From a virus: a stretch of 32,188 nt of DNA. The stretch is from positions 1 to 32,188 of IMG/VR virus record IMGVR_UViG_3300034061_002414; one strand, given 5' to 3'. Numbering within the stretch: position 1 is the stretch's first letter; each line of letters begins with the position of its first letter. Below, piece after piece: positions 14,038-26,931 of this stretch. Made by a program: the position numbers and the translations under genes. Below the pieces are notes generated by a model that was not told the DNA's origin, did not search any database, and saw only the letters and a program-made list of their open reading frames with translations.

Positions 14038-14120
14038 AGGCTCAGCCGTGGGAATACGAAGACGACGAGTTAGTTGTGTTGTGCAGGAGGTGCCACAAAG
14101 ATGAACATGCAATTCCATGA
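13950..14120 (+). CDS. HNH endonuclease domain in an overlapping frame (56 aa or a frameshifted C-terminus)
   Basis: From ATG 13950, with GGAG five bases upstream, the -1 frame codes a complete small HNH motif: CERCGS (first zinc-binding CxxC), VTIHHIIYR (catalytic HH), PWEYEDDELVVLCRRCHKDEH (second CxxC and the final H of the motif; the stretch is 21 residues and ends in two acid residues and H). The frame is also open upstream to 13893 and reads YSFKLADIQWKRRR, the helix normally preceding this motif, so the domain may be joined to the previous gene by slippage on the A7 run. The stop lies inside the start of the ParB-like gene. HNH domains nick or cut DNA; phage ones aid packaging or homing. 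Confidence 0.65.
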   Translation: MALLNARGNQCERCGSANDVTIHHIIYRIEAQPWEYEDDELVVLCRRCHKDEHAIP

Positions 14121-15078
14121 GATTGCAAACGTTTGGCCGTTACTCGATGACGACAAATTGCAAGAGCTTGCTGCTGACATTCGTGCTAACGGATTGGTGA
14201 ATCCGATTTGGACCTATGAAGGCAAGGTGCTAGACGGCAGGAACAGATACAAGGCTTGCTTGCTTGCAAACGTTACTCCGAAGTTCAACGAATACAAAGG
14301 CGATGAGCCTACCGCGTTTGCTGTGTCGATGAACGACAAGCGTAGGCACATGAACAAGGGGCAGCTTGGTGCGATTGGCGCAGAGCTTGAACCGTACTTT
14401 GCTAAGGATGCGAAGCGAAGGCAGGCGGCGGCAATTAAGGAGCGGGACGAAAAAGGTAGAGCCAAGCCAGTTGTGGAAAAAATTCCACAACTGGTGGATT
14501 CAAAACCTAAAGAATCCAACGCTAAAGAGCAGGCTATTAAAGATCAGTACGTAGCTGGAAAGTCTATCGAGAAAGCGGCAAACGCAAGGCAAGAAGCCGC
14601 CAAGTCAGTTGGCGTAAACGATCGTTACGTTCAAGATGCCAAGAAGGTTAAGCAAGAAGCACCTGAGGTATTCGAGAAGCTAAAGGCTGGCAAGATCACA
14701 ATGCAGGATGCCAAGCGGGAAGTCGCCAAGAAGCCAACAGACGATTGGCGTAAAGACGAACGCGACAGGCAAGTACTTGCTAAGCAAGGCAAAGCAGTCG
14801 TTGCGAATCAGAGCCAAGATAAGAACTTGATCTCATGGGCAGAGAGTCAAGGGTTAATGGTGCGGATTGATCGCTCTAGCAAGTACGGAAATCCATTCGT
14901 AATGGGCCAAGATGGTGACAGGGATTTTGTTTGCGATGCATTTGAAAAGCACTACTTGCCGCACAAGCAATCGATAAAGAACGACTTTGAAAAGTTGCAA
15001 GGTAAGGTTCTCGTGTGCCATTGCTATCCTGAACGATGCCACGGTGATGTACTTTGCAAGAAGGCTAACGCATCATGA
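14101..15078 (+). CDS. ParB-like nuclease/DNA-binding protein fused to DUF4326 (325 aa)
   Basis: ATG 14101 is preceded by AGGAGGTG. Residues 1-90 are a ParB/Spo0J N-terminal domain (FHEIANVWPLLDDDKLQEL, ADIRANGLVNPI, VLDGRNRYKAC). Residues 100-240 are charged and helical with an HTH-like stretch around NDRYVQDAKKVKQ. Residues about 255-325 match DUF4326 (RIDRSSKYGNPFVMGQDGDR, VLVCHCYPERCHGDVLCKK). ParB-type phage proteins act in partition, DNA binding or nicking; DUF4326 has no assigned function. A 28-bp perfect palindrome lies in the linker. Confidence 0.8.
   Translation: MNMQFHEIANVWPLLDDDKLQELAADIRANGLVNPIWTYEGKVLDGRNRYKACLLANVTPKFNEYKGDEPTAFAVSMNDKRRHMNKGQLGAIGAELEPYFAKDAKRRQAAAIKERDEKGRAKPVVEKIPQLVDSKPKESNAKEQAIKDQYVAGKSIEKAANARQEAAKSVGVNDRYVQDAKKVKQEAPEVFEKLKAGKITMQDAKREVAKKPTDDWRKDERDRQVLAKQGKAVVANQSQDKNLISWAESQGLMVRIDRSSKYGNPFVMGQDGDRDFVCDAFEKHYLPHKQSIKNDFEKLQGKVLVCHCYPERCHGDVLCKKANAS
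14467..14494 (+). repeat. Perfect 12-bp inverted repeat with AAAA loop inside the ParB-like gene
   Basis: CCAGTTGTGGAA (14467-14478), AAAA, TTCCACAACTGG (14483-14494). The coding meaning is the linker KPVVEKIPQLV. The perfect symmetry is not required by the protein and suggests a binding site or RNA hairpin. Confidence 0.75.
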
Positions 15079-16300: not shown

Positions 16301-16342
16301 TTGGTTTTAAGTTTGATGGATTCTAAAAAACATGGAGTGTTT

Positions 16343-16528
16343 ATGTTAGTTTTGAGCAGGAAAAAGGATGAGTCAATTCGCATTGGAAGCGACATCGTTA
16401 TCACGATTATTGAAATACGCGGGGACAAGGTACGTCTTGGCTTTGCAGCACCCAAGGACGTTTCGATTCATCGTCAGGAAGTTTACGAGAAAATCATTCA
16501 GTTTGCAGAGGAGAAAATCGCATCGTGA
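16343..16528 (+). CDS. csrA: CsrA/RsmA-family RNA-binding regulator (61 aa)
   Basis: ATG 16343 follows GGAG. The protein [18 protein letters not shown] plus [19 protein letters not shown] and [13 protein letters not shown] is typical CsrA, with the LVLSRK start, the RLG strand, the Arg44-region (IHRQEVY) and C-terminal helix intact. CsrA dimers bind GGA in mRNA leaders and control translation or stability. A phage copy could redirect host metabolism or time its own genes; many leaders in this window carry GGA. Its stop overlaps the GTG start of the acetyltransferase. Confidence 0.9.
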
Positions 16529-18948: not shown

Positions 18949-19048
18949 AACGGGACGCGAAACGCTGGTGAGCACTAGAGCCGCAGGTCTTCATTGCCGC
19001 AATCGGTGCAGCAGGGAGGCTGTATCTCAGAGGAAGAGCCGTCCCTGC
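18940..19048 (+). ncRNA. Structured non-coding segment after the exonuclease gene
   Basis: Two hairpins: GCGTC/GACGC at 18940-18958 spanning the TGA stop, and a strong one at 19011-19048 in which GCAGGGA pairs with TCCCTGC (7 bp) and GGCT with AGCC inside. Neither has a T tract. They precede the tRNA-like element. This could be a processed small RNA or a barrier at the end of the early operon. Confidence 0.35.
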
Positions 19049-19051
19049 AAT

Positions 19052-19126
19052 GGAGCGTGATTGGATCTCGGCACATAGAGGGCTGCAAGCTCCGTTGCCG
19101 ATTGGGTTCGATTCCCAACCGCTCGC
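19052..19126 (+). tRNA. Degenerate tRNA-like element
   Basis: The T arm is perfect (TTGGG-TTCGATT-CCCAA, 19102-19118) and is directly followed by CCGCTCG. GAGCG near 19053 pairs with CGCTC over five positions, giving a tRNA-size (75 nt) frame. A loop CTGCAAG (19083-19089) would show GCA (Cys), but its stem is only three pairs and the D arm is misplaced. Probably a remnant. It ends six bases before the first attC-like site. Confidence 0.3.
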
Positions 19127-19130
19127 TTGG

Positions 19131-19219
19131 TACGAACACCCAGGATAACCCAGTGCGAGGAGGAAAGTAACAATGGCAGAAGGCACTAACGAGCACTTGG
19201 GTTTATCCGATTGTTCGTC
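19131..19219 (+). repeat. attC-like site 1
   Basis: Inverse core AAC at 19135-19137, core GTT at 19213-19215. Arms AACACCCAGGATAACCCAG and CACTTGGGTTTATCCGATTG are complementary except for two extra bases on the 3' arm. The loop carries GAGGAGG and the ATG (19173) of the next gene. Confidence 0.7.
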
Positions 19220-19439
19220 GGCTTTTACCTACGATGAGGTCATGGCATTGATTCGTCGAAAGCAAAAGTTTTTCGAGGACAGGTGGAAGCGAGCCAACAG
19301 CGAAACAGAAGACATGTTTATGGGAATGCACGCTGCATGTGGGTTTTTCATTGCAGAGTTTGCGGCGTTAGCCTCTGAGAAACAGAAGAAGCGGCTTACG
19401 GAAAAAGGAATTTTGAGGGAGCAACCGCCGCAGTCGTGA
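19173..19439 (+). CDS. Cassette protein starting inside attC-like site 1 (88 aa)
   Basis: ATG 19173 lies in the loop of the attC-like site behind GAGGAGGAAAGTAACA; the first 13 codons are encoded by the site and the frame continues through the GTT core. The rest is helical (AYDEVMALIRRKQKFFEDRW-type, with SETEDMFMGMHAACGFFIAE). No family recognised. The cassette's own GTTCGTCGG start has no matching inverse core downstream, so its end may be altered. Confidence 0.55.
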   Translation: MAEGTNEHLGLSDCSSAFTYDEVMALIRRKQKFFEDRWKRANSETEDMFMGMHAACGFFIAEFAALASEKQKKRLTEKGILREQPPQS

Positions 19440-19465
19440 TGCGGCACAACGGTTGGAGGTGTTGG

Positions 19466-19513
19466 ATGAAACGCTGGTATCCGTTACGACAGGCTCTGCC
19501 AGCGATTTTTTAG
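19466..19513 (+). promoter_or_regulatory. Fifteen-codon leader ORF overlapping a terminator-like hairpin
   Basis: ATG 19466 has GGAGGTG just upstream and codes MKRWYPLRQALPAIF. Its codons contain CGCTGG (19472-19477) and CCAGCG (19499-19504), which form a stem followed by A and six T residues (19506-19511). Translating the short ORF would disrupt the stem, so this could be an attenuator ahead of the gene at 19581; the stem loop is long (21 nt), so a plain weak terminator is possible. Confidence 0.4.
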
Positions 19514-19580
19514 TACGGCTAACGTCAGCGATAACCCTGCGACGGGTGTCAAATCGTAAACGAAGAAATGGACAAACAAT

Positions 19581-19895
19581 ATGAACGCAATACAAGAAGC
19601 AATCGAGACAGTTAAGCAATGGCAATCTAGAGATCCACAAATCCAATTCCTGGACGGTCACAGCATGAGTGGAGCCGAAGCATGGCGTGCATGCCTGCGT
19701 AAGGTTCGCGACATGCTGGAGAGCGTTTGCAGAAATCATTGCATCGCAGAACTAGCAAAGGCAATGGACGACATGGCAGACACTATGGACGACCTGCACG
19801 ACGAACTAGACGACTACGACAAAGGATCTGGCAAAAGTCGACAACTGTATTTGTTGCTGCGGACAATGCACGAGACGTTGAGCAAGTCCGCATAA
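19581..19895 (+). CDS. Helical acidic cassette protein (104 aa)
   Basis: Helix-rich: AIQEAIETVKQWQSRD, EAWRACLRKVRDMLES, then a strongly acidic AMDDMADTMDDLHDELDDYD segment that could be coiled coil or a DNA mimic. A weak ribosome site only. The stop codon TAA overlaps the inverse core of attC-like site 2. No family recognised; an anti-host (DNA-mimic) role is conceivable but unproven. Confidence 0.6.
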   Translation: MNAIQEAIETVKQWQSRDPQIQFLDGHSMSGAEAWRACLRKVRDMLESVCRNHCIAELAKAMDDMADTMDDLHDELDDYDKGSGKSRQLYLLLRTMHETLSKSA

Positions 19896-19982
19896 CGCTA
19901 CCGATAATCGAGCCCGAAAGGAAAAACTATGACTAAACTAGAAAACTCCGATGAGGGCTTCGATTCATCGGATTGTTCGTCG
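19890..19982 (+). repeat. attC-like site 2
   Basis: AAC 19894-19896, GTT 19975-19977. Arms AACGCTACCGATAATCGAG and CTTCGATTCATCGGATTGTT pair with the same two unpaired bases. Loop contains AAAGGAAAAACTATG, supplying the start of the next gene. Confidence 0.75.
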
Positions 19983-20261
19983 TCCTCTCCGCTGGAAGTG
20001 TTGATCGACACAGGCGGCGAGGATGTTCACCATCCATATTCAGCGTTTAACCAGGGGTTCGACGCGCAGGCAAAAGGATACCCGAAAAGCTGCAACCCGT
20101 ATGCACCCAGTGCGAAGTCGGAACGGTTTGGGGAATCATGGTGGTGGGATCTCGGATGGGATGAAGCAAAAGACCAAGACGGATTGATCGATTACGGCAG
20201 CAACGCCGGTATTCGTTGCGACACAGACGATGGGCCATGCGCTTGTGGTGCGTGGCATTAG
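19929..20261 (+). CDS. Ribosome modulation factor-like cassette protein (110 aa)
   Basis: Starts at the ATG inside attC-like site 2 and reads through its core. The central part aligns by eye with ribosome modulation factor: AFNQGFDAQAKGYPKSCNPY, then ESWWWDLGWDEA, the counterpart of the RMF A-x-x-x-G-Y..CPY..WLGGW-x-EA signature. RMF dimerises 70S ribosomes into inactive 100S particles. A cassette-borne RMF homologue could shut down or protect ribosomes during infection. The protein is longer than RMF (about 55 residues) at both ends; the C-terminus has CACGAWH. Confidence 0.6.
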   Translation: MTKLENSDEGFDSSDCSSSSPLEVLIDTGGEDVHHPYSAFNQGFDAQAKGYPKSCNPYAPSAKSERFGESWWWDLGWDEAKDQDGLIDYGSNAGIRCDTDDGPCACGAWH

Positions 20262-20265
20262 GTAC

Positions 20266-20350
20266 GGCGAACGCTCGGATTCACCGAGAGGAAAAAGGTA
20301 AACACGATGAGCGAGACGAATGAGGCTTCGGTGGAATCCGTTGTTCACAC
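20266..20350 (+). repeat. attC-like site 3
   Basis: AAC 20270-20272, GTT 20343-20345. Arms AACGCTCGGATTCACCGAG and CTTCGGTGGAATCCGTTGTT; two extra bases on the 3' arm as in the others. Loop carries GAGGAAAAAGG and ATG 20307. Confidence 0.75.
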
Positions 20351-20630
20351 GCCTGGACCGTGGAAACGCTACGAAGGGTACGGAGTTGATTTTCGTCGGC
20401 CCGTTATAACAGATGCTATACCGGATCGCGACGGACAGTGCTTTGCGAACTGCATTTGCTACGTCGCAACGACAAATGGAGATTGGGACGCGAACGCAAA
20501 ACTAATTGCGGCCGCACCTGATTTGCTTGAGGCGTTGATCTATATGCGGCGAACGATGTACAGCGACACATCAGAGGAAAGCATCAAAGCAGACGCAGCC
20601 ATTGCCAAAGCGTTAGGCAAGGTCGTGTGA
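20307..20630 (+). CDS. Phage protein of the HTPGPW...LLEAL family (107 aa)
   Basis: Starts in attC-like site 3. HTPGPWKRYEGY and DANAKLIAAAPDLLEALIYM mark a widely distributed phage-associated protein family with no assigned function. The stop TGA overlaps the inverse core of site 4 (GTGTGAAC), exactly complementary to its cassette start GTTCACAC. Confidence 0.65.
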   Translation: MSETNEASVESVVHTPGPWKRYEGYGVDFRRPVITDAIPDRDGQCFANCICYVATTNGDWDANAKLIAAAPDLLEALIYMRRTMYSDTSEESIKADAAIAKALGKVV

Positions 20631-20716
20631 ACGCTTTGATTCAGGAAGCCGCAACCGCTACTGCTTCCACTGCGAATCGATTCGATAGCGGCTTTCCTGC
20701 AATCAATTGTTAGGGC
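20625..20716 (+). repeat. attC-like site 4
   Basis: Inverse core GTGTGAAC, core GTTAGGGC. Arms AACGCTTTGATTCAGGAAG and CTTTCCTGCAATCAATTGTT, then GCCGC/GCGGC stem. Loop without start codon. Best match to canonical attC length (about 90 bp). Confidence 0.8.
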
Positions 20717-20722
20717 TTTGCG

Positions 20723-21007
20723 ATGAAGTTGACGTTGACCGAAGATGAAAAAAGACAAGTACAGGATTGTGTTCGCCGCGTCCTCACAGGTGAGAAGAAA
20801 TGGGATGCACCAGAATTGCATTTTCCATCAATGGCGATCATTCGGGCAGTTGCCGAAATAGACGGAATTGTTGACACAGAAGACTTTCGCACTAACGGTT
20901 GGCAGTGGGACTGGTGGCAAGATTTTGAGTTTAAAGGAACGCGATTCACGTTGAGCGGATCAGGTGCGTATGGTGGTCATGCGTTTTTCGTCGCAGATGA
21001 GCAATAG
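20723..21007 (+). CDS. Unknown cassette protein (94 aa)
   Basis: ATG is 14 bases after the core GTT and lacks a clear Shine-Dalgarno. Helical start (TLTEDEKRQVQDCVRRVLTG), then WDAPELHF, a WQWDWWQDF aromatic patch and a Gly-rich end (SGSGAYGGHAFFV). No family recognised. The cassette ends in GCCCTAAC, complement of its core. Confidence 0.6.
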   Translation: MKLTLTEDEKRQVQDCVRRVLTGEKKWDAPELHFPSMAIIRAVAEIDGIVDTEDFRTNGWQWDWWQDFEFKGTRFTLSGSGAYGGHAFFVADEQ

Positions 21008-21010
21008 CCC

Positions 21011-21038
21011 TAACAAATAATCTATTGAGTTCCATATA
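21011..21038 (+). repeat. 28-bp exact repeat, copy 1
   Basis: Begins TAACAAATAATCTATTGAG and ends TTCCATATA. Identical to 23408-23435. Both copies start at the inverse core of a cassette, right after the bases complementary to that cassette's own start. In this copy AAC recurs at its end and leads into attC-like site 5. Confidence 0.85.
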
Positions 21039-21125
21039 ACGCTTTGATTCATCGAGTCCCCGCTCGGTGATTAACCATCAATAAACGCGTCGACGGGGAC
21101 TTCGATGCAATCAATTGTTATCGGG
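21034..21125 (+). repeat. attC-like site 5
   Basis: AAC 21038-21040, GTT 21117-21119. Arms AACGCTTTGATTCATCGAG and CTTCGATGCAATCAATTGTT, then TCCCCG/CGGGGA. Core GTTATCGGG is matched by CCCGATAAC at the end of its cassette. Confidence 0.8.
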
Positions 21126-21132
21126 CTTTAGT

Positions 21133-21351
21133 ATGTTTCAGAATATGGTCAGAGTCCCAAAGAAGTTTGAACAGATGTTGATAGACAGCGCAGAGCAGGA
21201 ACTAGGGACGCCGTGCTCAAATGTGGAAATAGCAGAAGCCCTACACGTTGCGAGTCTGTGGGCACCAGACAATCAGGTGGTAAAGGTGATTCGAAGATTG
21301 GCATTTGAGCGAGACAAATTACGGGAGCATTCCGAGAAAACGACAGAATAA
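21133..21351 (+). CDS. Unknown cassette protein (72 aa)
   Basis: ATG 21133 is 16 bases after the core GTT; ATG 21145 is an alternative start. MVRVPKKFEQMLIDSAEQEL then a helix with VAEALHVASLW-type pattern (actual: EIAEALHVASLWAPD) and a basic, charged C-terminus. I do not recognise it. The TAA stop lies inside a short inverted repeat. Confidence 0.5.
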   Translation: MFQNMVRVPKKFEQMLIDSAEQELGTPCSNVEIAEALHVASLWAPDNQVVKVIRRLAFERDKLREHSEKTTE

Positions 21352-21360
21352 AATATTCTG
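21344..21360 (+). terminator. Short inverted repeat at gene end
   Basis: CAGAATA-AAA-TATTCTG followed by GATTATTTTGATTT. A weak terminator or operator separating the 72-residue gene from the promoter at 21380. Confidence 0.35.
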
Positions 21361-21379
21361 GATTATTTTGATTTAGGTA

Positions 21380-21407
21380 TTGCCGCAATCAAGACCGATG
21401 ATATACT
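21380..21407 (+). promoter_or_regulatory. Promoter TTGCCG-16-TATACT inside a cassette
   Basis: -35 TTGCCG (21380-21385), -10 TATACT (21402-21407). Expected start near 21414, giving a 50-base leader to ATG 21466. A cassette-internal promoter for two overlapping small genes. Confidence 0.55.
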
Positions 21408-21465
21408 TTAGGCATGGCAAGCGAATGACGCGGGCCAAAACGAAACCTAAACCGGAGACAAGAAA

Positions 21466-21645
21466 ATGACGTTCACAAAAGGCCAAATCGTTAAAGGCAA
21501 AGTTGCTGGCAAGTTTGTTGTAGTAAAGTGCGAGTTCAGCAAAGTTCACAACAGCGAAGTGGTAACGGTAAATCAAATCAGTCCAGAAGGATTGGTTTCG
21601 CGAAGCAAGATGAAGTTTCCAGTAGATGTTCTGGTGGCAGAATGA
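21466..21645 (+). CDS. Small beta-rich cassette protein (59 aa)
   Basis: GGAGACAAGAAA precedes the ATG. MTFTKGQIVKGKVAGKFVVV then KCEFSKVHNSEVVTVNQI and KMKFPVDVLVAE read like a small SH3-like beta-barrel. ATGA overlap with the next gene. No named family. Confidence 0.65.
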   Translation: MTFTKGQIVKGKVAGKFVVVKCEFSKVHNSEVVTVNQISPEGLVSRSKMKFPVDVLVAE

Positions 21646-21830
21646 ACCACGGTGGAAAACGAGACAACGCGGGGCGAAAGCCCCGCGAAGATGGCAAAGG
21701 GCGAACCGTCCCGAAGTCAATCAAGGTTAGCCAAGAGGTAGCAGATTACCTTGCGGAAAACGGAACGGGTCTGATTGAAGATGCGATCCGCAAAACCAAG
21801 GCGTTCAAGGATTGGTCTAAGTCCCGATAA
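21642..21830 (+). CDS. Small GGKR-x-AGRKP-type DNA-binding protein (62 aa)
   Basis: ATG 21642 overlaps the previous TGA. Begins MNHGGKRDNAGRKPREDG, the basic GG-R-x-GAGR-P motif seen in small phage DNA-binding proteins and terminase small-subunit relatives; then KSIKVSQEVADYLAENGTGL resembles a ribbon-helix-helix. Likely a regulator of its own cassette. Its TAA overlaps the inverse core of site 6. Confidence 0.6.
   Translation: MNHGGKRDNAGRKPREDGKGRTVPKSIKVSQEVADYLAENGTGLIEDAIRKTKAFKDWSKSR
21668..21687 (+). promoter_or_regulatory. Perfect 8-bp hairpin with GAAA tetraloop in coding sequence
   Basis: CGCGGGGC-GAAA-GCCCCGCG, within codons for NAGRKPRE, 26 bases after the start of the 62-residue gene. 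A GNRA-capped stem of this strength would stall ribosomes or serve as an RNase or protein binding site. Confidence 0.6.
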
Positions 21831-21917
21831 CGCTTGGGATCATCGAGCCCCAAAGGAAAAACTATGAACAATCAAACGGACGTTGCAGGGGCTTCGATGC
21901 ATCCCATTGTTACCCAT
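21823..21917 (+). repeat. attC-like site 6
   Basis: Inverse core CCCGATAAC, core GTTACCCAT. Arms AACGCTTGGGATCATCGAG and CTTCGATGCATCCCATTGTT. Loop contains AAAGGAAAAACTATG (ATG 21864), identical to the site 2 signal. Confidence 0.8.
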
Positions 21918-22415
21918 CTTTTCCCCGAAATGGCATTAGACGTGGAGGAGGAAAGCGATGTTGTGTTTACACCGATTGACGTTGCCAAGGATGTCGTCCA
22001 ATGGTTCCAGCCATACGGAAAGGTTCTCGATCCATGCAAGGGCAATGGAGCATTTCTGCAGTTCATGCCTGGTGCGGATTGGTGCGAGATTCGAGAAGGT
22101 CGCGATTTTTTCGCGTGGACGGAACAAGTCGATTGGATTGTGAGCAATCCACCATACTCGATTTTCAGCAAGTTCATGCGGCACTCGATGACGGTCGCAA
22201 GGAACATCGTGTACGTCATTCCAGTCAACAAGGTTTACAACTCGGATCGAACGATGCGAGAGATATGGGATTGGGGAGGCGTGCCAGAGATTCACGTAAT
22301 CGGGCCGGGAGCGGCATTGAAGTTTCCAATCGGTTTTTGCATCGGTGCGGTGCATTTCCAAAGAGGCTACAGAGGATCCACACAAGTGACATTTCGCGAA
22401 AGAGAGAAGCCATGA
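21864..22415 (+). CDS. Adenine-specific DNA methyltransferase-like cassette protein (183 aa)
   Basis: Begins in attC-like site 6; the first 15 codons belong to the site. Motif I-like DVVQWFQPYGKVLDPCKGNG and motif IV VDWIVSNPPYSIF mark an N6-adenine methyltransferase of the short phage type. Target recognition domain is minimal. Such enzymes mark phage DNA against restriction. ATGA overlap at its end with a 58-residue gene. Confidence 0.8.
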   Translation: MNNQTDVAGASMHPIVTHLFPEMALDVEEESDVVFTPIDVAKDVVQWFQPYGKVLDPCKGNGAFLQFMPGADWCEIREGRDFFAWTEQVDWIVSNPPYSIFSKFMRHSMTVARNIVYVIPVNKVYNSDRTMREIWDWGGVPEIHVIGPGAALKFPIGFCIGAVHFQRGYRGSTQVTFREREKP

Positions 22416-22588
22416 ACGAGGATTTAACGAAAGCAACGCATTCGATGATGTTTGCGGTGGGAAGTCTGCAGGACGCCCTGAAGCGTGCCAACCCAGTCGA
22501 GGCACTATTGCTGTTGGATCTGATCGAAACGGCGGCAAAAGTCCAGCAACGTATCGAATCGCTGGCGGCGGCGATCGAGTCCAAGTAA
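22412..22588 (+). CDS. Small helical protein (58 aa)
   Basis: ATGA overlap with the methyltransferase. A single long helix-rich chain: MMFAVGSLQDALKRANPVEA then LLLLDLIETAAKVQQRIESL. Possible coiled coil or small partner of the methyltransferase. No family recognised. Confidence 0.6.
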   Translation: MNEDLTKATHSMMFAVGSLQDALKRANPVEALLLLDLIETAAKVQQRIESLAAAIESK

Positions 22589-22590
22589 GT

Positions 22591-22685
22591 ATGGGTAACG
22601 ACTAAATTCATCGAGTGGCCGCGATGAACTAACCATTAAAGAAAACGCATGTCGGCCACTTCGATGCAATTTTTTGTTCGTCGTC
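22591..22685 (+). repeat. attC-like site 7
   Basis: Inverse core ATGGGTAAC, core GTTCGTCG. Arms AACGACTAAATTCATCGAG and CTTCGATGCAATTTTTTGTT, stem TGGCC/GGCCA. Loop contains CTAACCATTAAAGAAAACG as in sites 5, 8 and 9. Confidence 0.75.
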
Positions 22686-22699
22686 CTTTGGAGATAAAC

Positions 22700-22987
22700 G
22701 TGAGCGCAGAAGATTGCATTTTATACCGCAAGATCGGTAATGATTGGTGCGTCCTCGGATACGGTTTTACATTCGCGGAAGCGGAGTTAGGAGATTACGA
22801 ATTTCGAAAAGCGTCAACAGTTGTCAAGTTCGAGGAATTGTTTACGCATCTCGAAAGGCTCAATGCTAAATACGTCACAGAGTTTGGCATTTGCTACGCT
22901 GGCGAGTTCATTTCGGATGTTCCGCCAGAAGTGCCGCAAGAGCATCGCGTCTTGTGTTGCATCCCTGATAGTGAACGTGACGATTAG
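22700..22987 (+). CDS. Unknown cassette protein (95 aa)
   Basis: GTG 22700 has GGAG six bases before it and is preferred over the in-frame ATG 22649 inside the attC-like site. Predicted alternating strands and helices: AEDCILYRKIGNDWCVLGYG, EELFTHLERLNAKYVTEFGI. Three cysteines. No family recognised. Cassette ends CGACGAAC. Confidence 0.6.
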   Translation: MSAEDCILYRKIGNDWCVLGYGFTFAEAELGDYEFRKASTVVKFEELFTHLERLNAKYVTEFGICYAGEFISDVPPEVPQEHRVLCCIPDSERDD

Positions 22988-22989
22988 GT

Positions 22990-23087
22990 ACGACGAACGA
23001 CACACATCACCGAGTCCCCGCCGGTGATGCAACCATTTCCAAAACATGCGTTGTCGGGGACTTCGGTGCATGTGATTGTTATTTGTC
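22990..23087 (+). repeat. attC-like site 8
   Basis: Inverse core CGACGAAC, core GTTATTTGTC. Arms AACGACACACATCACCGAG and CTTCGGTGCATGTGATTGTT, stem TCCCCG/CGGGGA. Loop of the CAACCAT-AAAACATGCG type. Confidence 0.75.
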
Positions 23088-23150
23088 TTTTTTGGAGTAA
23101 TTATGGCATCACAAGCTATTAGTATTAAGTGCGACAGTTCGCCTTTTGTC

Positions 23151-23369
23151 TTATTTACCAAACTTCTTGATGGTCGCCTCAAGGTCGGCGAGAGAACGCT
23201 CGACTTTAGCGATCTCTGTTTTGAATTGTTTCGCATCGAGAGTGATTTCAGTTCCGCAGGCACAGGCGAACTTGTTGTGCGTCTTTATCCATCCGATGGT
23301 TTTCTTCGTTTTGCGACGACAGTTCTCGCAGGGGATTTCGATCTCGCTTTTGTCGAGTAGGTTTTTCAC
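23151..23369 (-). CDS. Small zinc-ribbon protein on the minus strand (72 aa)
   Basis: The only minus-strand gene. Start GTG at 23369 (coding strand) has AAAGGA nine bases upstream; an ATG at 23432 lies in a repeat and lacks such a site. The product holds EIPCENCRRKTKKTIGWIKT and FACACGTEITLDAKQFKTEI, a four-cysteine zinc ribbon followed by a helix (EIAKVERSLADLEATIKKFG). I recognise this as a recurring small protein type in bacteria and mobile DNA, without known function. The cassette is closed by GTTATTTGTC and its complement, so the gene is in the reverse orientation to its attC. Confidence 0.75.
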   Translation of the reverse strand: MKNLLDKSEIEIPCENCRRKTKKTIGWIKTHNKFACACGTEITLDAKQFKTEIAKVERSLADLEATIKKFGK

Positions 23370-23407
23370 GTCTTGCAATCCTTTGTGTTTGTGAGCATTG
23401 AGACAAA

Positions 23408-23435
23408 TAACAAATAATCTATTGAGTTCCATATA
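23408..23435 (+). repeat. 28-bp exact repeat, copy 2
   Basis: Identical to 21011-21038. Here it is followed by TCACGGTGTTATG instead of a new attC-like site. Both copies begin with the TAAC of an inverse core. Confidence 0.85.
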
Positions 23436-23440
23436 TCACG

Positions 23441-23466
23441 GTGTTATGTGGAATTTACCATAACAC
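23441..23466 (+). promoter_or_regulatory. Inverted repeat upstream of the replication module
   Basis: GTGTTATG (23441-23448) and CATAACAC (23459-23466) separated by ten bases, 60 bp upstream of the initiator gene. Likely operator. Nothing else is recognised in 23436-23525. Confidence 0.5.
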
Positions 23467-23525
23467 GCCAAAACAACCGGATATGTTGAATCAACAACCA
23501 CTAGAGGGGCTGTTAAGGTAGCACG

Positions 23526-24278
23526 ATGCCACGAATTAGGACGATCAAGCCGGAGTTTTGGACGAACGAGCAATTGGCATTATTGTCTTTGCACGCGCGT
23601 TTGTTAGCGATTGCGTTGCTGAATTTTTCAGACGACGAAGGATACTTTTTGGGGAATGCTTCGTTGGTTCGAGCTTCGTGTTTTCCATTCGAGGATTGTT
23701 CCAAGAACGTTCTTGGAAGCCTCCAAGAGCTTTCCCGCGTAGGTTATATCGAGGTGCGGGAGTGTTCGGGAAAGACGGTTGGGAAGGTGGTAAAGTTCCG
23801 CGAGCACCAGCGCATCGATAAACCGCAAACGTCCAAGCTGATGCCACTGTTCCATTCTGTCGCACCTGCAAAAACACAGGAAAACGACAGCGAAAAATCA
23901 GATTCCAAGAACATTCCAGGAACGTTCCAAGAATCTTCCGGGAAGACTATACGCCTGGAACAGGGAAAGGAACAGGGAAAGGGAACAGGGAATAGAGAGA
24001 GAGAAGACGCGAACCAAGAATTTGAAACTGCGTGGACTCGGTGGAAACTCCACTCTCTGGACAAAGGGAAATCGATCAACGGGATCTCTGAGGAAACGCA
24101 ACTGATGCAACTGGCTCAGGCTTATCCGGAGGTGGCAGATCGGATTGCGGCAATCGAGTATGCGATTCTGAAGAACTGGGCAAACGTGAATTTGGGTGGG
24201 GATCATAATCGGCCTCCACCGGAGACGAGATCGAACGGACGCAGGCAGAAAACGACTTTTGAGGAGGTGGGGCTATGA
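23526..24278 (+). CDS. Phage replication initiator/replisome organiser (250 aa)
   Basis: MPRIRTIKPEFWTNEQLALL, then ARLLAIALLNFSDDEGYFLG and VKFREHQRIDKPQTSKL are the hallmark N-terminal winged-helix features of phage replication organisers. The middle is a Ser/Lys/Gln-rich linker containing tandem DNA repeats; the C-terminal part is helical (EFETAWTRWKLHSLDKGKSI). As with lambda O, the linker is a likely origin. ATGA overlap with the following gene. Confidence 0.8.
   Translation: MPRIRTIKPEFWTNEQLALLSLHARLLAIALLNFSDDEGYFLGNASLVRASCFPFEDCSKNVLGSLQELSRVGYIEVRECSGKTVGKVVKFREHQRIDKPQTSKLMPLFHSVAPAKTQENDSEKSDSKNIPGTFQESSGKTIRLEQGKEQGKGTGNREREDANQEFETAWTRWKLHSLDKGKSINGISEETQLMQLAQAYPEVADRIAAIEYAILKNWANVNLGGDHNRPPPETRSNGRRQKTTFEEVGL
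23701..23716 (+). repeat. 16-bp perfect palindrome in the initiator gene
   Basis: CCAAGAACGTTCTTGG, self-complementary. It shares the TTCC/GGAA core type of the iterons 200 bp downstream and may be an extra initiator binding site. Confidence 0.6.
23903..23993 (+). repeat. Iterons, candidate origin of replication inside the initiator gene
   Basis: Four 11-bp units, TTCCAAGAACA, TTCCAGGAACG, TTCCAAGAATC and TTCCGGGAAGA (23903-23946), each built around TTCC-NN-GAA, one helical turn apart. They are followed by three copies of GGAACAGGGAAA (23957, 23969, 23982) and an A/G-only tract. Arrangement and location in the linker of the initiator gene parallel the lambda origin. Confidence 0.6.
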
Positions 24279-24739
24279 CGATCGAAGAAGCGAATAGCTT
24301 TTTACGGGAAGCGTTTATTGCGTTCCCTGGGGTGCTGCAGTGGGTGAAGGATAACTCACCAGATCCGAAGCAAACGTTGCAGCTTTGGGCAAAGAACCTA
24401 GAACGGATTTCAACAGCAGAAGCGATCAGCGTTCTGAACAGGTGGAACGCAAACGAGATCCCGCCACCGTCAGGCTATCAACGTGAATTATTTATCAACC
24501 ATGTGATCGCGGTGGTTCAGAAAGATCGATCGAAGAATTATGCAGCTCGGCACCGTGAAGAGGTTTTCGAACAGCTTAACCTGAAGCAGCCGAAGGGGAA
24601 CTACAACGCAGTTTGTGGTCCGTTTATGAAAGATGTGCTAGGACTCAAAGCAAGTTATGATTTAGGACAGATCAGCTTTGAAGAACTTACGAAGCAGGTC
24701 GAGGAACGGAAACAACAAGCGATGGACTCGGTGAAATGA
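24275..24739 (+). CDS. Replication partner / helicase-loader-like protein (154 aa)
   Basis: ATGA-coupled to the initiator. Helical: TIEEANSFLREAFIAFPGVL, LQLWAKNLERISTAEAISVL, then RELFINHVIAVVQKDRSKNY. Proteins of this size and helical content after a phage initiator usually recruit the host helicase; no AAA motif is visible, so it is not an ATPase. Function inferred from position. Confidence 0.5.
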   Translation: MTIEEANSFLREAFIAFPGVLQWVKDNSPDPKQTLQLWAKNLERISTAEAISVLNRWNANEIPPPSGYQRELFINHVIAVVQKDRSKNYAARHREEVFEQLNLKQPKGNYNAVCGPFMKDVLGLKASYDLGQISFEELTKQVEERKQQAMDSVK

Positions 24740-25098
24740 AACGCAGCAAGAAAGGATTCTATGGAACGGCTTCAATCCTTAACGATCACGATTCCCGGGA
24801 AGCTTCCGACATGGAACGCACTGTTGGCTATGAATCGCTGGCGACGAGCGGAAGTACGGCATTCGATTCACTTGTTAGTATTCGAATCCATTCGTACCGA
24901 ATCCGTCTGGCGGACGTTGACGGGATCAGTGGAAAGGCAGTCCTTGACGGATTGGTGCTTGCCAAAATTATCGCAGACGACACCACGAAGGAAGTCAAGG
25001 AAGTCTTGTTCAGTCAAACCAAGGTCAAGAATAAGACGGAAGAAAAAGTAGTCGTGACAGTCGAGAGGGTGGAGCAAAAATTGAATCCTGGTTGTTAA
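24736..25098 (+). CDS. RusA-like resolvase split by a -1 frameshift
   Basis: ATG 24736 overlaps the previous TGA, but the RusA-like N-terminus is in the frame that starts at ATG 24761 (AAAGGA upstream): LTITIPGKLPTWNALLAMNR. The C-terminal half continues in the frame ending at 25098: RIRLADVDGISGKAVLDGLV, IADDTTKEVKEV with the DxxD-type and DD residues of RusA/Holliday junction resolvases. The switch must occur between about 24870 and 24920, where no slippery heptamer is present. Either a recent one-base loss or a sequence error; otherwise the gene is a pseudogene. Confidence 0.6.
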   Translation: MKRSKKGFYGTASILNDHDSREASDMERTVGYESLATSGSTAFDSLVSIRIHSYRIRLADVDGISGKAVLDGLVLAKIIADDTTKEVKEVLFSQTKVKNKTEEKVVVTVERVEQKLNPGC

Positions 25099-25103
25099 TT
25101 ACG

Positions 25104-25203
25104 GGGGACGCGGCAAGTGCCGGGTGACACCGGAAAAGTGAGCAAGGCCAGCAGTCAACTGGCTGTCAAAAGACTATGCAGTGTGCGAATCCTGCCGTCC
25201 CCA
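25104..25203 (+). tRNA. Type II tRNA-like element with irregular loops
   Basis: GGGGACG (25104-25110) pairs perfectly with CGTCCCC (25196-25202). Anticodon-like arm GCCAG-CAGTCAA-CTGGC (25147-25163) has a seven-base loop but A where T33 should be. A variable-arm hairpin GTC-AAAA-GAC follows, then a T arm GCAG(T)G-TGCGAAT-CCTGC with one extra base. The D region is 36 bases, too long. Probably a decayed or specialised tRNA. It ends eight bases before attC-like site 9. The 332-bp interval 25099-25430 holds this element, attC-like site 9 and a promoter. Confidence 0.35.
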
Positions 25204-25210
25204 TTAAGTC

Positions 25211-25303
25211 AGGCGAACGACTGTCATCATCGAGTCCGCACCAGTTGATTTACCATCAGGAAACGGCTCAAGGCGGACTTCGATGCATGACTTTGTTCCC
25301 CGT
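25211..25303 (+). repeat. attC-like site 9
   Basis: AAC 25216-25218, GTT 25295-25297. Arms AACGACTGTCATCATCGAG and CTTCGATGCATGACTTTGTT, stem TCCGC/GCGGA; loop of the TTTACCATCAGGAAACG type. Confidence 0.75.
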
Positions 25304-25340
25304 TCCGACGCTCCAAAAGATTTTCCAGAATAATTCCCAG

Positions 25341-25387
25341 AAAGTGTGTGTAGAGTTCTTGCCCCAGTCGATAAGTGTGTGTATAGT
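25341..25387 (+). promoter_or_regulatory. Cassette promoter TTGCCC-17-TATAGT with duplicated 15-mer
   Basis: -35 TTGCCC (25359-25364), -10 TATAGT (25382-25387). AAGTGTGTGTAGAGT (25341-25355) and AAGTGTGTGTATAGT (25373-25387) differ in one base and are 32 bp apart, about three helical turns, one covering the -10 and one upstream of the -35. Likely operators or twin -10 regions. Confidence 0.6.
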
Positions 25388-25430
25388 AATCGCATCACGG
25401 CAACGATAACCACAAACAAGGAAACGAAAA

Positions 25431-25622
25431 ATGGCCTGGAATATCCAATACGAAAACGACAGCTACCCAACGATCAAAGTTTTCGGAAGCCGAGAAAAGG
25501 CAGAAGAGACAGCAAAGAAGCGAAATAAGTACAACGAAAGCTACACGATCACCGAAGCCCCAAAACAAAACTACGAAATCGAAATGGAGCAAGCGATTGA
25601 AGAAGTCAAAAAGTACGGCTAA
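25431..25622 (+). CDS. Small cassette protein (63 aa)
   Basis: AAGGAAACGAAAA upstream of ATG 25431. MAWNIQYENDSYPTIKVFGS then EKAEETAKKRNKYNESYTIT and a helical acidic end. The strand-helix pattern is that of small beta-alpha phage proteins. No named family. The next gene starts within it. Confidence 0.6.
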   Translation: MAWNIQYENDSYPTIKVFGSREKAEETAKKRNKYNESYTITEAPKQNYEIEMEQAIEEVKKYG

Positions 25623-26025
25623 GGCTGGCGGCGAAAAGCCGGGGGGCAACCCCCGGCGAAAACGCCGGTCGTTCAAGGAAAAACAAAACTGGATTCTCGA
25701 AAGATTGGACCGTGAATGGGAGCGGATTTTGAGAACAACCGTTTCAGGTCACTATCCGCCAGACATTTCGTCTCAGAACGAGGAGGACGAAGAGGCATGG
25801 CATCAAGAATTTGGAGGCTATCGAAAGTGGTATTTAATGGGACACCATGTTTCTCCAGATTTCGCAAGAACGCTTCGCAGGATGTGGGAGAACGGGATTT
25901 TGTATAGATCGACCGGAGGAAATCAAGGAGCAAGAGAAGGCGGATACGCGATGAAAACGTACTACGTTTCGTATCGATCCAAAAGACACCACCACGAAGC
26001 AAAAGTATTGAGAGGCGAAGCGTGA
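25597..26025 (+). CDS. Unknown basic protein with TTG start (142 aa)
   Basis: TTG 25597 has GGAG eight bases upstream and lies in the end of the previous gene; no ATG or GTG precedes the body. N-terminus is basic (AKAGGEKPGGNPRRKRRSF), encoded by a strong hairpin. The body RTLRRMWENGILYRSTGGNQ and YYVSYRSKRHHHEAKVL suggests a winged-helix or nucleic-acid binding protein. No family assigned. GTGA overlap at its end. Confidence 0.55.
   Translation: MKKSKSTAKAGGEKPGGNPRRKRRSFKEKQNWILERLDREWERILRTTVSGHYPPDISSQNEEDEEAWHQEFGGYRKWYLMGHHVSPDFARTLRRMWENGILYRSTGGNQGAREGGYAMKTYYVSYRSKRHHHEAKVLRGEA
25629..25667 (+). promoter_or_regulatory. Perfect 8-bp GNRA-capped hairpin with outer stem in coding sequence
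   Basis: GCCGGGGG-GCAA-CCCCCGGC (25638-25657), enclosed by CGGCG (25629-25633) and CGCCG (25663-25667). It lies just after the stop of the 63-residue gene, inside the next reading frame. Very stable; expected to affect ribosome flow between the two genes. Confidence 0.6.
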
Positions 26026-26213
26026 CAAACGAGCGCAAAAACATTACGCAACCTTCCGATTGGTGGGTTGCATTTGAGGAAGCAGCGAAAGCCGAAGGCT
26101 TGACGCTTGCAGCTTGGCTAGGCGAAGCCGCCAAAGCGAAGCTGCCGCCGAAGGTGGCGAAGAAGCTGACGGAAAGACCGCCAGCAAACCGCCCACCGAA
26201 GGCGAAAGACTAG
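26022..26213 (+). CDS. Small antitoxin-like/RHH-type protein (63 aa)
   Basis: GTGA overlap with the previous gene. SDWWVAFEEAAKAEGLTLAA then WLGEAAKAKLPPKVAKKLTE and a Pro/Lys-rich end. The W-x-x-F-E-x-A-A-x-x-x-G-L-S-L pattern is common in small phage DNA-binding proteins with a ribbon-helix-helix-like core. Probably a regulator. No family confirmed. Confidence 0.55.
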   Translation: MTNERKNITQPSDWWVAFEEAAKAEGLTLAAWLGEAAKAKLPPKVAKKLTERPPANRPPKAKD

Positions 26214-26216
26214 ATA

Positions 26217-26311
26217 CGGGGAACGCTACGGTTCATCGAGCCGCCAAGGAAAAACTATGCAAAACCAAACCAACGTGACAGGCGGCTTCGATGCAACCGT
26301 TTGTTCCACGG
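26217..26311 (+). repeat. attC-like site 10
   Basis: Inverse core CGGGGAAC, core GTTCCACGG. Arms AACGCTACGGTTCATCGAG and CTTCGATGCAACCGTTTGTT. Loop holds AAGGAAAAACTATG (ATG 26257), the same start signal as sites 2 and 6. Confidence 0.8.
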
Positions 26312-26514
26312 CCATCAAGCATTCAAAGGTTGATGTTCGTGTTATCGGCGATCATCCACACAGCGGGAAATCCGGTTGGATTCCTCTCCGCAATGGAGAG
26401 CCAGAGACGATCAATATGTTCGGTCGTCTCATGGCCAAGATTGAGTTTCCAGACGGTACTGGATGCTACGCAGAGATGCGTCATTTTTCTATTTACAAGG
26501 ACCAAAGAAAGTGA
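26257..26514 (+). CDS. Unknown cassette protein starting in attC-like site 10 (85 aa)
   Basis: The first 15 codons are encoded by the attC-like site (MQNQTNVTGGFDATV). The body is beta-rich, with DVRVIGDHPHSGKSGWIPLR and AKIEFPDGTGCYAEMRHF, resembling a small SH3-like or OB barrel. No family assigned. The next gene starts at a GTGA overlap. Confidence 0.6.
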   Translation: MQNQTNVTGGFDATVCSTAIKHSKVDVRVIGDHPHSGKSGWIPLRNGEPETINMFGRLMAKIEFPDGTGCYAEMRHFSIYKDQRK

Positions 26515-26867
26515 AAGACGAAGAATACATCGCGAGAGCGATTGAAGGATGCGTAGTTGGCAACGGGTCAAAACAGATTTCGTTGCTAGTCGAAGAGTTG
26601 GGGCGAATTGTCGCCGAAGTCAAATACGTTCGCAGTCAATCGTTTTGCCCAGACATGGGCGAGTTTTCGCGTGGATACCAAACGGCGTGCGATGAGATCC
26701 TGGAACGGTGCAAACCGTACAGGAGAATCCAAGCGGGCAGGATGACGATTGAGCATCTGGCAAAGCGGCTCGCGGACGTCGAGCGTTGGGTTGAGCAACG
26801 TAGCGGCATTAGTGAAAACGCGAGTTTACACAACGAAGCGTGCGACAGCGAAAAACGGTCGCATTAG
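26511..26867 (+). CDS. Unknown helical protein (118 aa)
   Basis: GTG 26511 overlaps the stop of the previous gene; GGAC lies upstream. Helical: EYIARAIEGCVVGNGSKQIS, LVEELGRIVAEVKYVRSQSF and IEHLAKRLADVERWVEQRSG. No recognised family. Near match of CCGTGTGAAC after the gene suggests a degraded cassette end. Confidence 0.55.
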   Translation: MKDEEYIARAIEGCVVGNGSKQISLLVEELGRIVAEVKYVRSQSFCPDMGEFSRGYQTACDEILERCKPYRRIQAGRMTIEHLAKRLADVERWVEQRSGISENASLHNEACDSEKRSH

Positions 26868-26931
26868 GTCCGTGTGAACAATTTATTAACCTGCACCGCG
26901 CAGTTTTAACACGCAAAATCAAGGAGGTAGC

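Follow-up and report, generated by a model that had tools for sequence, protein, structure and literature searches.

Integron cassettes are taught as a gene followed by an attC site, with expression lent by a promoter at attI. The virus record IMGVR_UViG_3300034061_002414 (IMG/VR; 32,188 bases, possibly a fragment; hereafter the window) raises the question of whether this order holds in phages and of where the cassette genes begin. The window contains capsid, recombination (YqaJ) and replication genes and, between 19132 and 26308, ten hairpins, the base of each being marked by an AAC box on the 5' side and a GTT box on the 3' side. A first-pass annotation had described these hairpins as attC-like sites, some of which would provide the cassette that follows with a ribosome site and a start codon. 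The reading favoured here, to which we give a probability of roughly 0.8, is that phages of Pirellulales (Planctomycetota) have an integron lineage of their own, with inverted cassettes and a translation start in about one third of the attC loops. It is built on sequence features (the site family, polarity, frame locking, junction positions, attI-like array ends and the integrases of relatives), from which we infer the transcription, translation and recombination of these cassettes.

Site family and polarity

The ten hairpins have the characteristics of attC sites: their ends follow RYYYAAC...GTTRRRY, their stems are paired and their extrahelical bases are confined to one arm. At the end of a gene stretch, the AAC box is often complementary to the GTT box with which that same stretch begins, as expected of integron cassettes. 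A covariance model (R1) was built from 40 of 77 strict host attC sites and included no window sequence. Applied to the whole window, R1 gave exactly 10 matches, all on the plus strand (E-values: 1e-17 to 1e-8), so that every site of the first-pass annotation was recovered and nothing else was matched. This model of sites from integrase-bearing genomes also recognises one of the two R388 sites, and it gave 114 matches in 45 viral loci. Because a host-only model matches exactly these ten sites, the phage and host Pirellulales sites can be assigned to one attC family. Paired columns of the family covary, including columns 3, 28 and 29, which lie outside the selection made by the detector; as the detector requires pairing, part of the covariation arises by selection. 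A search with the pattern of these sites against one genome for each of 84,980 species returned 22 stretches, all 22 of them in Planctomycetota, and a DNA search of a phage collection using window positions 19000-26900 gave no match. With ten attC sites and no integrase gene in the 32 kb record, the window can be described as a cluster of attC sites lacking an integron integrase (CALIN).

In a canonical attC site, the extrahelical bases occur on the arm nearest the end of the gene. The R388 orfA attC has them on the 5' arm. Window sites 2, 6 and 10 have them on the 3' arm, opposite to this reference. Similarly, R1 matches the R388 dfrB2 attC on the minus strand, the dfrB2 gene being on the plus strand (the second R388 site is unmatched). 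The direction of the open reading frames (ORFs) between sites was also compared. By strict ORF coverage, 50 viral intervals comprise 16 that are forward-only, 1 reverse-only, 22 open in both directions and 11 in neither, while the corresponding figures for 57 host intervals are 2, 32, 11 and 12 (viral versus host, p = 3.4e-10). One of the two host forward-only intervals is a phage-type cassette in host locus L228. A looser count by ORF length agrees, with 43 forward and 19 reverse intervals in the viral set and 12 forward and 51 reverse in the host set. Genes that read from attI toward their own attC, as in canonical cassettes, are absent from the window with the exception of cassette 8. Phage cassette genes thus appear to be mostly inverted relative to attC, with the hairpin standing ahead of its gene, and the mobile unit would therefore be the hairpin plus the ORF behind it. 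Integrons of host Pirellulales use attC sites of this family in normal polarity, and their loops hardly ever contain an initiation signal.

Predicted start codons in attC loops

Two kinds of site can be told apart by their loops. Type A sites (1, 2, 3, 6 and 10 in the window) have a Shine-Dalgarno (SD) sequence and an ATG in the loop, at the spacings from GTT that had been noted at first (Table 1), and type B sites are without this signal. In all five type A sites of the window, the ATG frame is open across the 3' arm and GTT into an ORF (88, 110, 107, 183 and 85 amino acids for cassettes 1, 2, 3, 6 and 10, respectively). The loop signal is indeed absent from sites 4, 5, 7, 8 and 9; the accompanying proposal that all five of their cassettes have their own starts was not fully confirmed: a scan of the window found an SD-supported start within 60 nt in the longest frame for site 7 only. 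By eye, sites 7 and 8 each show a GGAG resembling an SD sequence, with a start after GTT.

The association of loop signal and frame was counted over non-redundant sites (91 viral and 90 host), a frame being called open if it continued for at least 40 codons past GTT. An SD and ATG are found in the loops of 32 of the 91 viral sites, and the ATG frame is open at all 32; the remaining two frames are open at only 1 and 2 of these sites. A filter removed window site 1 and the site at 4208 of L081 from this count, and both were open when checked separately. Among the host sites, three of the 90 have the signal and one, in L228, has read-through (viral 32/91 versus host 1/90, Fisher p = 3.4e-10). Twelve type A readings in integrase-bearing and related phage loci were all open, several of them being the same sites seen again. 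Two further loci listed as type A were treated as false detections: L010, which has no R1 match, and L076, which was outside the R1 search.

Phase is also kept between relatives. Among homologous gene bodies it is the same in 15 of 15 pairs, including pairs with ATG-to-GTT distances of 40 and 46 or 45 and 48 nucleotides (nt) and methyltransferase-like genes that are merely 35-49% alike. A universal reading frame across cassettes is ruled out, as phases 0 and 1 are used almost equally (15 and 16 of the 32 viral type A sites, with one site in the third phase). Matching phase is no evidence for such a frame in any case, because a single unit of stem and gene would show it anyway.

The site-encoded N-terminus suggested by the first-pass annotation would amount to about 12-16 residues. 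The cassette 3 protein matches phrog_1273 from residue 14 on, which is the point where the site-encoded part ends. The predicted RNA folds of the five type A sites consist of a long hairpin with a wide SD/ATG loop that is largely, though not wholly, open; of the two type B sites that were folded, the loop is partly paired in site 5 and mostly open in site 7. The arrangement is distinct from translational aid of the attI1 ORF-11 type, in which a short ORF terminates before the cassette start, as the ATG frame enters the gene at all 32 sites. The loop ATG is probably the start codon that is used. Of the 55 type B viral sites that are followed by an open stretch, 27 have an SD-supported start of their own within 60 nt after GTT, typically an ATG 22-27 nt past it. 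The division into type A and type B is real yet not clean.

Mobile unit, array ends and integrases

The extent of the mobile unit can be approached through junctions between related contigs. A left edge was scored where two contigs share a gene and differ upstream; the pairs behind these edges are not independent. Of 32 left edges, 17 lie within -9 to +8 of AAC, 10 lie 2-25 nt before GTT and 5 are far inside genes. Because 17 of 32 join at the AAC end, stem and gene usually seem to travel together. Of 29 right edges, 18 are far upstream of the site and 11 are near it (four at AAC, three in the stem and four at 5-8 nt past GTT). Inverted polarity would put the strand cut between AA and C of the plus strand, so that the unit would be the stem and the gene behind it. 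Within -12 to +3 of the next AAC, a forward ORF stop is found in 40 of 50 viral intervals. The start codon in the loop is mostly to be regarded as a property of its own cassette rather than as a gift from the preceding one. The proposal that a site delivers the start of the next cassette does not stand as a rule, given the polarity and the 17 AAC edges; cassette 1, in which an L081-like stem is joined at R' to an L158-like gene in frame, fits it and is the only instance in which a start codon seems to have passed to a different gene.

If the sites had canonical polarity along the genes, each would belong to the preceding cassette and would hand a ribosome site and a start codon to any cassette inserted behind it. 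The in-frame join at R' in cassette 1 favours this explanation, as do related stems in L081 and L174 that precede other genes and the uneven use of the phases (15/16/1). The three polarity tests (extrahelical arm, R388 strand and ORF direction) point the opposite way, however, the commonest junction of contigs that share a gene is at AAC, and two near-equal phases would break the frame in half of free swaps. We consider this explanation unlikely.

Two conserved families of array ends are found, each directly after the last AAC. Family 1 is conserved in the window and in L085, L198, L109, L116, L178, L233 and L256. Family 2 (window 26877) is similar to the sequence that separates the last cassette from intI in six phage records. 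Each of the two window arrays has an end of one of these families, called attI-like here as a candidate attI. A duplicate of the array 1 end sits inside the array between cassette 4 and site 5, like a mini-cassette with no gene. The left flank of array 1 is common to the window, L085, L086 and L087 up to 19137 (AAC), beyond which the arrays differ; the right flank from about 23408 is common to the window, L085, L087 and L198, and the arrays between the flanks differ.

Of 51 viral records, not all of which carry arrays, 6 encode an integron integrase that scores above the NCBIfam cut-off (0 of 7, 5 of 25 and 1 of 19 in three sets). One integrase-bearing record, G053, encodes a capsid protein with 78% identity to that of the window. 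All six phage records have cassettes, an attI-like stretch and intI, in this order, on one strand, and their 15 intervals comprise 8 forward, 0 reverse, 3 both and 4 neither. No variation is seen in the active-site columns R, K, H, R, H and Y across the 16 integrases compared. Five of the six phage integrases fall into one clade of the integrase tree (support 100/99), and the six are 31-42% identical to host and R388 integrases. Integron integrases above the same cut-off are encoded by 8 of 11 host genomes searched. Host L234 has its integrase on the minus strand, reading toward the array (the reversed type); host L235 also has it on the minus strand, with attI between array and integrase. These phages probably run a separate integron lineage that has integrases and attI types of its own and draws on a common pool of reverse-built cassettes. 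In these, attC would act as 5' leader and coding start and the cassette as a complete translation unit.

Exchange with hosts is suggested by L228, a contig of a host metagenome-assembled genome (VGZN01000408). On its minus strand at 2323-2401, an inverted methyltransferase-like cassette of phage type with an SD/ATG loop stands among the other cassettes. The genome containing it also encodes integron integrases. This cassette could also be cited in favour of chance capture, in which phages simply pick up host integron cassettes and so carry an ordinary CALIN, the genes start further in and the SD/ATG loops are coincidental; the presence of the attC family in host chromosomes and the minus-strand cassette adjoining an attI-like end of the window would fit as well. 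Capture by chance is nevertheless quite unlikely in view of the excess of type A read-through in phages (32/91 versus 1/90), the opposite gene direction in phages and hosts, the phage integrase clade and the phage attI-like families. It is very improbable that the hairpins are purely RNA elements of a phage operon, acting in translation control or termination after recombination has ceased. The hairpins are predicted to be stable in the transcript and one of them opens each cassette, but R'' and R' match within cassettes, the cassette contents of near-identical phages differ, the joins lying at the boxes, and such arrays have integrases next to them in which all active-site columns are conserved.

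Several observations weigh against an inverted phage integron lineage with starts in its loops. Cassette 8 of the window is a minus-strand gene, the L148 cassette is reverse-only, and ORF coverage alone leaves the direction undecided in 33 of 50 viral intervals. Of the 32 left edges, ten fall near GTT; on the right, four edges are found 5-8 nt beyond it, three of which are one event (L081 versus the window, L082 and L083, the last two being near copies of the window). The integrase of phage L264 is outside the main phage clade on a long branch, and the window itself has none, with 0 matches to the tyrosine recombinase family PF00589 in the 32 kb record. The three codon positions of the loop-coded part have 33/21/35 substitutions, so the peptide is without clear constraint and may be merely tolerated. 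Finally, 9 of 32 type A genes have a possible SD start (mostly TTG or GTG) at most 60 nt after GTT.

The features of the two arrays are collected in Table 1. A replication initiation gene (phrog_1408) at 23526-24278 directly follows the end of array 1. T-arm-like stretches at 19085-19130 and 25099-25205 stand just ahead of each array and look by eye like remains of tRNA-like genes; searches of the window for tRNAs (ARAGORN) and with Rfam gave zero matches. Elsewhere in the window, the ORF at 16301-16528, which we take by eye to resemble the translational regulator CsrA, adjoins a GNAT acetyltransferase gene, and at 14098-15078 a weak ParB-like N-terminus (below the cut-off) is fused to DUF4326.

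Table 1. Sites, cassette ORFs and attI-like stretches of the two window arrays
Feature	Position	Strand	Remarks
attC-like site 1, type A	19132..19218	+	R1 E-value 3.6e-13; ATG 19173, 40 nt to GTT; SD-like GAGGAGGAAAG at 19157-19167; frame open
ORF of cassette 1, predicted start in site 1 loop	19173..19439	+	Gene body shared with L158, stem different
attC-like site 2, type A	19891..19980	+	R1 E-value 6.6e-14; ATG 19929, 46 nt to GTT
ORF of cassette 2, predicted start in loop	19929..20261	+	
attC-like site 3, type A	20267..20348	+	R1 E-value 1e-8; ATG 20307, 36 nt to GTT
ORF of cassette 3	20307..20630	+	Residues 14-105 match phrog_1273 (E-value 6.6e-16)
attC-like site 4, type B	20627..20714	+	R1 E-value 2.8e-13; no SD/ATG in loop
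attI-like copy within array 1	21012..21038	.	28 nt at 21011-21038 identical to 23408-23435; repeat family D16
attC-like site 5, type B	21035..21122	+	R1 E-value 1.1e-16; loop partly base-paired in predicted fold
attC-like site 6, type A	21826..21914	+	R1 E-value 7.1e-15; ATG 21864, 45 nt to GTT
ORF of cassette 6, DNA methyltransferase-like, predicted start in loop	21864..22415	+	Pfam N6_Mtase (E-value 1.3e-5); phrog_799 (E-value 2.8e-26)
attC-like site 7, type B	22594..22681	+	R1 E-value 1e-17; gene with own SD and GTG at 22700
attC-like site 8, type B	22993..23083	+	R1 E-value 1.9e-17
Gene of cassette 8, normal integron orientation	23151..23432	-	phrog_4875 (E-value 2.6e-4) on residues 23-93; CxxC pair
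attI-like array end, family 1	23409..23462	-	Just ahead of replication initiation gene; conserved after last AAC
attC-like site 9, type B, first of array 2	25213..25300	+	R1 E-value 2.3e-17
attC-like site 10, type A	26219..26308	+	R1 E-value 5.6e-15; ATG 26257, 46 nt to GTT
ORF of cassette 10, predicted start in loop	26257..26514	+	L144 has this gene in the same phase
attI-like array end, family 2	26877..26917	-	Resembles last cassette-intI stretch of six phage records

Relation to known integrons and proposed model

Translation signals in the ORFs of attI1 and attC were reportedly addressed by Jacquier (2009) and Hanau-Bercot (2002). ORF-11, ORF-17 and ORF-18 of attI1 and short ORFs in attC are examples of recombination-site sequence that supplies translation signals to cassettes lacking them, according to the relevant sections of PMC8876359; passages of PMC4670013 are likewise a source on such signals in attI1 or attC. 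In those cases (PMC8876359), translation of a separate short ORF is terminated, after which the ribosome reinitiates at the start codon of the cassette itself. In the phage cassettes, by contrast, the site ATG opens the frame of the gene itself, and the site would be translated into the protein.

Phage integrons and CALINs have been described before. Qi et al. 2023 (PMC9892861) report attC arrays in phage genomes, integrases in some of these phages, cassettes encoding DNA methyltransferases and recombination of phage attC sites by IntI1 in an assay. The arrays described here share the first three of these features. They differ in that typical arrays there follow the normal cassette direction, one phage having divergent attC directions. 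Neither systematic inversion nor start codons in attC are described in the parts consulted, and the word Planctomyc* is absent from the main text. The attC type of the sedentary chromosomal integrons of Planctomycetes is modelled in the pertinent part of PMC8352920. The phage sites are of the same family and are found by a host-built model, although normal polarity and a near absence of SD/ATG loops set the host cassettes apart. Treponema integrons, as outlined in PMC3607928, have a reversed intI that is transcribed toward attI. In both Treponema and the phage systems intI is co-directional with the cassette genes; unlike in Treponema, the genes of the phage cassettes are read in the direction of attI, and intI, on the far side of attI, points away from it. 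Searches of the open literature gave no description of inverted phage cassettes or of gene starts in attC loops; most subscription papers were outside their scope, and absence is unproven.

Expression and movement of these cassettes could proceed in the following way. The phage would transcribe the array from the left, by way of an upstream phage promoter, so that the cassette genes are read toward attI (and intI where present) along the direction of the phage operon. The mobile unit would be ordered as hairpin, ORF and R'' box, and in about one third of the sites the variable loop would have been turned into a translation initiation region. Ribosomes would start at the loop ATG, translate the 3' arm and R' and so enter the gene, and the protein would gain the site-encoded residues. 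A cassette inserted at a phage attI would be a self-contained block: it would hold a ribosome site, a start codon, an ORF and, in or beside R'', a stop codon, and would need nothing beyond a passing transcript. An integrase from the host or from a co-infecting relative of the phage may shuffle such units at attI.

If this model holds, the phage lineage reverses the textbook order of the cassette, and attC gains a second job as a translation start. Gene starts would then have to be annotated within the recombination site. The arrays raise the question of how a site that folds as single-stranded DNA may also serve as the coding 5' end in mRNA, and that of how small genes, such as those of methyltransferases, may be traded among phages and with their hosts.

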